Shown in pieces: positions 18,320-20,106 of a stretch of 40,205 bases of DNA. The notes below the pieces were generated by a model, which was given only the letters and a program-made list of their open reading frames with translations, made no database searches and had not been told where the DNA came from. Numbering within the stretch: position 1 is the stretch's first letter; the number at the start of each line of letters is the position of its first letter. Origin of the DNA: an uncultured Porphyromonadaceae bacterium. Its GTDB lineage: Bacteria > Bacteroidota > Bacteroidia > Bacteroidales > Muribaculaceae. The position numbers were made by a program, and so were the translations under genes. The stretch lies in assembly GCA_947178215.1 (NCBI GenBank), contig CAMWXJ010000022.1:1-40205 (forward strand), read 5' to 3'.

Positions 18320-18618
18320 AAAAAGCAAAGTCGGCGAAAGGGTGGATAACACTGCTTTCGCCGACTTCGTATGGGCCACATCAAAGGATGCGATGAAACT
18401 CCGAATGACAGGATTTGAGAGCAAAGCCGGCCTTTGTAATCCTCTGTTATTCTTCCTGAAGGAAGCGCTTGACACGCGGTCGAGCGTGAGGCCCGCCATT
18501 GGCCGACCGAGCTTGTCTCGGTATTTCATTATAATTTGATGAGTTTCCCAATCAACTTTGATGTGGTTTTGGGTTATACTCTAAGGCGACTCTCTTGTCG
18601 CCGTTGGTGTTTGCTTTG
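18320..18618 (-). ncRNA. Candidate structured non-coding RNA
   Basis: A minus-strand transcript is predicted from a near-consensus promoter (TTTG at 18653-18656, 20-base spacer, TAACTTTGC at 18624-18632) to an intrinsic terminator (13-bp stem 18328-18340 with 18355-18367, then TTTGCTTTTTA). Inside, an 11-bp long-range stem joins 18556-18566 with 18376-18386, and the next 7 bases in, 18541-18547 with 18395-18401, pair as well. The enclosed domain has local hairpins: ACCGAG/CTCGGT (18506-18522), CTTCC/GGAAG (18452-18465), and a compound one AGGATT/AATCCT with CAAAG/CTTTG (18410-18443); a GGCGAC/GTCGCC hairpin lies near the 5' end. A 74-codon frame crosses the region but would read through the terminator stem. 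It does not carry the signatures I know for tmRNA, SRP RNA or RNase P. Confidence 0.72.
18328..18367 (-). terminator. Intrinsic terminator of the candidate ncRNA
   Basis: Perfect 13-bp stem AAGTCGGCGAAAG with CTTTCGCCGACTT around a 14-base loop. On the minus strand it is followed by TGCTTTTTATAC, giving the U-rich tail. The two 3'-end hairpins here (this one and 18263-18297) face each other and separate the convergent transcripts. Confidence 0.75.
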
Positions 18619-18623
18619 ATAAC

Positions 18624-18656
18624 GCAAAGTTAAGGCTTGAGGTTCGATTTTGCAAA
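18624..18656 (-). promoter_or_regulatory. Promoter of the candidate ncRNA
   Basis: TTTG (18653-18656), a 20-base spacer and TAACTTTGC (18624-18632) on the minus strand, a full match to the Bacteroidetes -33/-7 arrangement. It sits just downstream of the purF stop and faces away from it, with no protein gene ahead for hundreds of bases. Confidence 0.72.
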
Positions 18657-18699: not shown

Positions 18700-20106
18700 T
18701 CAGTCGTGGGATGAGCCGTCAAAGCAGTGAGTGCAGATTTTGCACTTGGGCAGACCGATAGAGTTGACTACATTCTCTATAGAGGCAAATTTGAGTGACG
18801 TAACGCCGAGCTGTCGGCGTATATCCTCCACCATGCCTTCATACTCGGGTGAGCCGGTAGTAGCATATGCGTCGAGGTTGCTGTCGTGAGCGCCTTCGCG
18901 TTCCTGAATTACTCGGCGTGTAATAAGTTCCAGCTCGCTTTTTGATGCCGTGAAGTTGATAAAGCGGCAAGGATAGATGAGCGGCGGGCAGGAAATGCGT
19001 ACATGTACCTCCTTGGCACCGTCGGCGTAGAGGTCAGCCACATTGTCGCGAAGCTGAGTTCCGCGCACAATGGAATCGTCGCAGAACACGACTCTCTTGC
19101 CACGCAACAATTCGCGGTTAGGTATGAGTTTCATCTTGGCGACGAGCTCGCGGCGCTCCTGGGTGCCGGGGGTAAACGAGCGGGGCCATGTGGGGGTGTA
19201 TTTGACTATCGCACGCTTGTATGGCACTCCGAGGCCCTGGGCATAACCGAGTGCCATGCCTATGCCTGAGTCGGGGATGGCACTCACATAGTCGACCTTG
19301 GTGTCGTCGGTGGCGGCCATATCCTCTCCACATTTGTAGCGCATTTCGTCTACATTGCGGCCTTCGTATTCACATACCGGATAGCCGTAATAAGTCCAGA
19401 GGAACGCGCATATCTGCATCTCCTTTTCGGGCTTACGCAGCTGTTCGCTTCCGTTGTGGGTGAAACGCACTATCTCGCCCGGTCCGAGATTGGCCTCGAT
19501 AGAGAAGCCAAGATTGGGGAACGAGCATGTCTCGGAAGTAGCCGCAAACGCGTCATCCTTTTTGCCCAGGATTACCGGGGTACGGCCAAGACGGTCTCGG
19601 GCGGCTATGATGCTTCCGTCGTCCATAAGTATGAGCATCGAGCAAGAGCCTTTGACATGGCGATATACATTCTCAATACCGTCAACAATATCTGTGCCGT
19701 CGCTGATAAGGGCGGCAATCATCTCGGTAGGGTTGATGATGTCGTAGGAATGTTCGCAGAAGTGATGGCCTTTGGCGAGCATCTCACGTTCGAGCTCGTC
19801 GATGTTGTTGATACGTCCTACCGTAACGATGGCGAATTTGCCGAGATGGCAGTTGACGATGATGGGCTGTGCGTCGGTATCGGAGATAACGCCGATGCCG
19901 GAATTGCCCGAGAACTGGTCGAGGTCGCCCTCGAATTTGGTTCGGAAATAGGTATTCTCAATATTATGAATCTGACGGCTGAAAATGCCGTTGTCGACAG
20001 TGGCCATGCCGGCGCGCTTAGTGCCGAGGTGGCTGTTGTAGTCTACTCCATAAAAGAGCTCGTTGACGCAGTTGCTTTTTTTAGCAACTCCAAAAAAACC
20101 TCCCAT
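18700..20106 (-). CDS. Amidophosphoribosyltransferase paralogue lacking the glutaminase nucleophile
   Basis: A 468-residue PurF-family protein. The C-terminal phosphoribosyltransferase part is intact, with the PRPP loop VVFCDDSIVRGTQ (about residues 339-351). Cysteines in QICAF, YPCRF and KCKICTHC (455, 458, 461) lie where Bacillus-type PurF binds a 4Fe-4S cluster. The N-terminal Ntn-hydrolase half is altered: canonical mature PurF begins with the nucleophile Cys followed by Gly, here it is Met-Gly-Gly-Phe; the usual HRGQDAAGI is SHLGTKRAGMA, and the NGNL oxyanion segment is GRINN. So it probably cannot hydrolyse glutamine and may use ammonia or do something else. It follows purL after 113 bases that contain a hairpin. 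A canonical PurF is presumably encoded elsewhere. Confidence 0.85.
   Translation of the reverse strand: MGGFFGVAKKSNCVNELFYGVDYNSHLGTKRAGMATVDNGIFSRQIHNIENTYFRTKFEGDLDQFSGNSGIGVISDTDAQPIIVNCHLGKFAIVTVGRINNIDELEREMLAKGHHFCEHSYDIINPTEMIAALISDGTDIVDGIENVYRHVKGSCSMLILMDDGSIIAARDRLGRTPVILGKKDDAFAATSETCSFPNLGFSIEANLGPGEIVRFTHNGSEQLRKPEKEMQICAFLWTYYGYPVCEYEGRNVDEMRYKCGEDMAATDDTKVDYVSAIPDSGIGMALGYAQGLGVPYKRAIVKYTPTWPRSFTPGTQERRELVAKMKLIPNRELLRGKRVVFCDDSIVRGTQLRDNVADLYADGAKEVHVRISCPPLIYPCRFINFTASKSELELITRRVIQEREGAHDSNLDAYATTGSPEYEGMVEDIRRQLGVTSLKFASIENVVNSIGLPKCKICTHCFDGSSHD

Follow-up and report, generated by a model that had tools for sequence, protein, structure and literature searches.

The window, that is the whole stretch of 40,205 nucleotides analysed here, originates from a Muribaculaceae bacterium and harbours, on its minus strand and between a purF-like and a flavodoxin gene, a locus that comprises a promoter, a leader hairpin, a conserved body and a terminator (Table 1). 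The neighbouring PurF-like protein (18700-20106, minus strand) contains a GATase_7 glutamine amidotransferase domain according to Pfam, with GATase_6 just below the cut-off. Amidophosphoribosyltransferases possess an N-terminal catalytic cysteine; the PurF-like protein starts with MGGFFGV and seemingly lacks such a residue. A tRNA gene (56.5 bits) is located at positions 140-220 on the minus strand of the window.

Table 1. Positions of the promoter, the RNA and its structural elements in the window
Feature	Position	Strand	Basis
-33 element TTTG	18653..18656	-	sequence; consensus from PMC7366714
-7 element TAACTTTG	18625..18632	-	sequence; same element upstream in 50/55 family loci
5' leader hairpin GGCGAC-AAGAGA-GTCGCC	18585..18602	-	recurs in relatives
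Bacteroidales-1 / 6S RNA conserved body	18368..18568	-	RF01693 full length; single copy in genome
Closing stem P1, 5' strand	18556..18566	-	covariation; pairs with 18376-18386
Stem P2 GAAACUC, 5' strand; probable product-RNA template	18541..18547	-	covariation; pairs with 18395-18401
5' central bulge, A/U-rich	18522..18540	-	unpaired between P2 and apical arm
Apical arm, 5' side; conserved GGCGGGCC at 18497-18490	18488..18512	-	covarying pairs with 18421-18444
Apical arm, 3' side; conserved GGAUUACAAA at 18442-18433	18421..18444	-	alignment, covariation, RNAalifold
Stem P2 GAGUUUC, 3' strand	18395..18401	-	covariation, RNAalifold
Closing stem P1, 3' strand	18376..18386	-	covariation, RNAalifold
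Intrinsic terminator (perfect stem of 13 bp, T tract)	18320..18367	-	sequence, fold, relatives

Both promoter elements that the initial annotation had read on the minus strand, TTTG at -33 and TAACTTTG at -7, are indeed present, as is the terminator. The consensus applied here, TTTG / TAnnTTTG, is the one quoted in a passage of PMC7366714, and the transcript would start near 18618 (minus strand). Fifty-five loci, namely the own one, the 30 best and 24 others, were fetched from the 110 matches within the family. TAnnTTTG occurs at most 120 nt upstream in 50 of them (2.9 expected by shuffling), and a terminator-like hairpin follows at most 90 nt downstream in 47 (12/55 when each was shuffled once). 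In the window, the terminator stem pairs 18367-18355 with 18340-18328 and is followed by TGCTTTTT on the minus strand; an automated terminator scan with a loop limit of 8 listed none on this strand. In some divergent 6S-like copies (L139, L146, L154-L156 and L158) the closing stem runs straight into a T run and may double as a terminator, whereas the terminator in the window is separate from it. Of the 50 promoter-bearing Muribaculaceae leaders, 28 contain a hairpin with a varying stem and an AAGAGA-like loop, as against 3 of 50 after one shuffle each; this count is based on a broad loop criterion and, since the pattern was first spotted by eye, does not constitute a blind test. With a stem of at least 4 pairs, the AAGAGA-loop hairpin occurs a single time across the two strands of the window.

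The locus is an ordinary further copy of the known RNA family Bacteroidales-1. In a cmscan with all 4227 Rfam families, RF01693 was the sole match above cut-off, covering positions 1-179 of its 179 with the window stretch 18568-18368 (minus strand) at 110.7 bits (E 1.2e-17), above the 60 bits from which Rfam assigns membership. The structured RNA is thus not new, as had been considered at first, but belongs to one of the two Bacteroidales motifs which had been named as alternatives in the same annotation, and it was the suggested search with covariance models that identified it. A permissive Rfam scan of the locus revealed no match to RF00013 (6S/SsrS, cut-off 46.4 bits) or to RF01685 (6S-Flavo, cut-off 85 bits) at E-values up to 10. 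In agreement with the earlier remark that the marks of tmRNA, SRP RNA and RNase P RNA are missing, the permissive scan gave no match to any of these; it added a single match on the opposite strand to RF02233, which was rejected as sub-threshold (21.2 bits, cut-off 80). Compared to the RF01693 model, the RNA in the window is matched over the full length but possesses a longer apical arm (201 nt on 179 positions), and neither P1 nor P2 is drawn as paired in the consensus structure of Rfam. The Rfam entry itself carries the description "6S-Bacteroidales RNA suggested".

RF01693 is present once in the own genome, which lacks an RF00013 match at E ≤ 0.001. Of 119 Muribaculaceae genomes, 110 possess one copy each (91 of the 92 good genomes), and in a sample at the level of the order it was matched in 48 of 198 genomes (E ≤ 0.001), in 36 of these above cut-off.

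The 11-bp stem P1 and the 7-bp stem P2, both of which had been proposed from the single sequence, are present and are supported by covariation across relatives. The comparison is based on a MAFFT alignment (A1) of 78 Bacteroidales sequences, obtained from 88 loci by an identity limit of 88% and without L100, which is cut at a contig end. All 11 pairs of P1 exhibit double-sided changes and 93.2% of the cells are paired; in P2, 97.8% are paired, three of seven pairs are doubly changed and three are invariant. RNAalifold recovered 9/11 pairs of P1 and 6/7 pairs of P2 unprompted. The covariation score of the full structure is 0.346, while shuffling gives 0.158 and sliding the structure along the alignment no more than 0.087; P1, P1b and P2 alone score 0.283 (0.151 shuffled, at most 0.091 slid). 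The structure was, however, drawn in part from the sequence of the window, giving it an advantage over the slid controls, and the shuffles ignore relatedness. The assertion that such nested complementarity is beyond chance is also corroborated by folding. The stretch 18625-18320 folds with z = -6.8 (0 of 100 shuffles as stable) and the core 18566-18376 alone with z = -4.6 (0 of 200), while a perfect long-range helix of 11 bp enclosing a nearby perfect one of 7 bp arose once when 18620-18320 was dinucleotide-shuffled 5000 times, by a criterion set after the stems were known. Taken together, the sequence and its comparison with relatives support the original proposal that a structured non-coding RNA is encoded here between a promoter and a terminator of its own.

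In the minimum-energy fold of the single sequence the 7-bp stem does not form, and its 3' strand is instead paired with 18527-18521. Six pairs of this alternative helix (18527-18521/18401-18395) persist in 61 of 78 sequences if one mismatch is allowed, but since its covariation stays within the range of shuffles, 105 of 500 of which attain its score, it was rejected as a supported stem and P2 is the better supported of the two. The alternative helix might conceivably play a role in refolding after product-RNA synthesis.

With regard to the apical arm, doubly changed pairs were found at 7/7 pairs in columns 70-77 and at 4/4 in columns 87-90 of A1, and at 0/6 pairs of the bulge-adjacent helix (columns 54-59, 78 sequences). 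A two-pair helix drawn at columns 80-81 is one column off (3.8% paired) and was carried into the models in this form; RNAalifold sets it correctly. In the helix beside GGCGGGCC, columns 89/151 (window 18489/18443) are occupied by A-U, U-A, G-C or C-G, but 23 of 78 sequences have C facing C there, which is a recurring mismatch within a conserved stem. In 44 of 78 sequences, the complement of the 5' bulge agrees with TAnnTTTG at 5 or more of its 6 letters (shuffle mean 24.7, maximum of 100 shuffles 32), and there is no excess on the 3' bulge strand (5/78, shuffle mean 5.4). This hints at a tendency of the 5' bulge complement to resemble the -7 box, in a count that is uncorrected for relatedness. 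A closing stem, a large 5' central bulge and an apical arm, which are the elements of the 6S layout, are thus all present with covariation in 78 sequences. The opinion that the RNA branches more than 6S RNA could consequently not be upheld, the more so as profiles also tie it to RF01685 and RF00013.

Among 159 sampled Bacteroidia genomes (E ≤ 0.001), RF01693 was found in 10, five of them above cut-off, and RF01685 in five, none of them above; the three Rfam families together exceed their cut-offs in five genomes. One locus, in genome G139, is recognised by RF01693 as well as by RF01685, in each case below cut-off. Two further loci, L173, which belongs to the genus of G139, and L207, also draw matches from both families, with L207 scoring above the RF01685 cut-off. 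We also consulted profiles of our own, whose E-values are rough owing to a short calibration. R1, built from A1 and hence from Bacteroidales sequences only, includes P1 and P2; it matches 26 of the 159 genomes, including three of the five RF01685 loci, and in the fetched loci it also found a fourth, L041 (E 3.3e-7), and weakly the fifth, L045 (E 0.012). R2 was trained on 73 sequences, all of them from Bacteroidia, with L045 of genome G260 left out. It matches 63 of 159 genomes and all five RF01685 loci, of which four are in its training set and G260 alone is independent. In a specificity search of 252 kb, 28 true loci scored 88.9-156.8 bits under R2 and the best other match 14.4. As alignment A4 (97 rows, 406 columns) was too wide to model, R3 was built from A5, for which L071, L102, L107, L113, L153 and L198 were dropped and two loci of other classes, L213 and L217, were added, so that R3 lacks the independence from RF00013 that R2 has. 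R3 matches 72 of the 159 genomes, two of them at two loci each, and the other 87 gave no match at E ≤ 0.001 under strict filters. Among 20 divergent loci submitted to cmscan, none reaches any Rfam cut-off. The sequence of 6S-Flavo has diverged from that of the window, to which RF01685 shows no match, but the bridging loci share the layout of P1, P2, bulge and apical arm, and some loci are matched by both families.

The link to canonical 6S RNA was approached in a similar manner. R2 matches 30 of 148 genomes sampled from the phylum, seven of them outside the class, and five of the six fetched loci from outside the class are also matched by RF00013 over the full length, at the same place and on the same strand, with sub-cut-off scores of 25 to 31.5 bits. 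In the reverse and cleaner test, RF00013 itself was run on these 148 genomes and gave matches in 15, once above cut-off. Twelve of these 15 loci, including the sole one above the Rfam cut-off, were re-found by R2 in place, on the same strand and over the full length (E 1.6e-6 to 0.0025 in 48 kb), in a search of fetched loci that was smaller and had laxer filters than the whole-genome search, in which R2 reached two of the 15 RF00013-positive genomes (G519 and G568). Of the remaining three loci, one gave a weak partial match and two gave none. RF00013 yielded no match at E ≤ 0.001 in the 159 Bacteroidia genomes, and E. coli ssrS gave no match with R2 (under 6 bits) and none was listed with R3 at E-values up to 10. 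Since R2 misses the E. coli 6S RNA and RF00013 misses the Bacteroidia, the link runs via intermediates, and we conclude from these sequence comparisons that Bacteroidales-1 is probably homologous to 6S RNA through a chain of them and not by direct similarity. Bridging loci and profiles thus provide an indirect homology to accepted 6S RNAs. Closing stem, 5' bulge and apical arm are common to both; in contrast, RF00013 does not directly match the window, its genome or the 159 Bacteroidia, and the predicted product RNA differs.

As R1 finds 6S-Flavo loci and R2 re-finds canonical 6S loci, the locus very probably represents the gene for 6S RNA in this Muribaculaceae bacterium. 6S RNA is a small RNA that ties up RNA polymerase. 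According to passages of PMC8414754, in which the 6S layout is described, the product RNA starts in the 5' bulge and its synthesis triggers the release of the enzyme. Applied to the window, a housekeeping promoter would give rise to a transcript of about 300 nt that is ended by the intrinsic terminator and whose body would fold, as covariation supports, into the closing stem P1/P2, a large A/U-rich 5' bulge and the apical arm. By homology, this RNA would bind polymerase with the primary sigma factor by mimicking an open promoter, and the sequestration would lower transcription in poor growth. When nucleotides return, polymerase might copy the bulge-adjacent strand into a short product RNA, whose synthesis would unzip P2 and P1 and set the enzyme free. 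In the alignments of L218 with R2 and with RF00013, the 5' strand of P2 is in register with CUGAGCC of 6S RNA, the template strand in E. coli, which makes it the probable template also here. From this register and from the start of the E. coli product RNA at U44, a start near 18538 on the plus strand is predicted, running upward in coordinates, and the -7-like geometry would allow a start up to about 18543. A GG at positions 4/5 or 5/6 of product RNAs is described in PMC8414754 as key and as conserved beyond the lactic acid bacteria. The product RNA predicted here has no GG at these positions, which counts against the exact start site.

A passage of PMC7366714 reports a Bacteroides 6S RNA that was seen by dRNA-seq together with two classes of product RNA. 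An exact-pattern scan of genome contigs, in which one changed base would hide a locus, did not connect the B. thetaiotaomicron 6S RNA treated there to RF01693; it returned 27 stretches, none titled B. thetaiotaomicron. Named Bacteroides species tied to the RF01693 family are, e.g., B. fragilis and B. cellulosilyticus.

It is also conceivable that the locus gives rise to something other than a 6S RNA. The location between the purF-like and the flavodoxin gene would be in line with a cis-acting leader or 3' element of one of these genes. However, the RNA has its own promoter and terminator, and it is kept where its neighbours are not: in 170 other loci, the flanks of the RNA (mostly 0.5-1.5 kb, some cut by contig ends) gave no match to any of the four neighbour proteins, so that we regard a cis-acting element as extremely unlikely. 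Conserved synteny with purF-like, fld, purH or purL was likewise rejected, being confined to the own locus (tblastn, E ≤ 1e-5). Since the neighbours are not conserved, the purF/flavodoxin surroundings are uninformative on function. A short messenger RNA carrying the 74-codon frame (18529-18305) has hardly any probability either. This frame is open in the window, but of 55 relatives just 36 retain a start codon (ATG, GTG or TTG), the frame length varies from 0 to 200 codons, and the box-to-box distance modulo 3 is 0 in 27, 1 in 14 and 2 in 14. As neither start, length nor phase is conserved, the frame was rejected as a protein, in accordance with the previous judgement that no convincing protein is encoded here.

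A structured RNA of unassigned job, i.e. Bacteroidales-1 in a neutral sense and unrelated to 6S RNA, has somewhat more in its favour. Rfam places RF01693, RF01685 and RF00013 in no clan, and Table 1 of PMC2864571 keeps Bacteroidales-1 and 6S-flavo as separate motifs. Against this stand the loci that are matched by two families, the matches of the profiles to RF01685 and RF00013, the common 6S layout and the single copy throughout the family, and an unrelated RNA is therefore improbable, leaving a 6S RNA as the preferred reading.

Beyond the single locus, it appears likely that Bacteroidales-1, 6S-Flavo and canonical 6S RNA constitute one Bacteroidota-wide family, represented in Muribaculaceae by a precursor with a recurrent AAGAGA-loop leader hairpin. 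The family would be partly hidden because the Bacteroidales-1 model of Rfam omits the outer stems; R3, which includes them, detects loci in 72 of the 159 Bacteroidia genomes, as against the five in which the three Rfam families exceed their cut-offs. The polymerase of Bacteroidota reads TAnnTTTG and not the boxes of E. coli (consensus as given in a passage of PMC7366714). Such promoters, together with a bulge complement that resembles the box, suggest that the RNA may mimic the phylum's own promoter and may have co-evolved with it. In the open-access literature, as represented by listings and passages, we found no paper joining Bacteroidales-1, 6S-Flavo and 6S. Wehner et al. 2014, as cited in a passage of PMC7366714, predicted product RNAs in Bacteroidetes, so that the case for one family may partly be in print already. 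6S RNAs are also discussed in the supplement of PMC2864571.

The side results outweigh the additional copy itself. The "suggested" 6S label of Rfam gains a tested, if indirect, homology, and the structure of Bacteroidales-1 is completed by the outer stems P1 and P2 that are missing from the Rfam model. Moreover, many Bacteroidia, a group with a polymerase that reads unusual promoters, are indicated to carry 6S genes below the Rfam cut-offs, and it becomes testable how far the principle of promoter mimicry tracks an altered promoter code.

Two genomes possess two 6S-like loci each, at C37:11960-12162 and C93:5472-5679 in G164 and at C3:61119-61308 and C7:46668-46858 in G196. Bacillus subtilis has two 6S RNAs, as stated in a passage of PMC8414754, and the paired loci in G164 and in G196 are perhaps paralogues.
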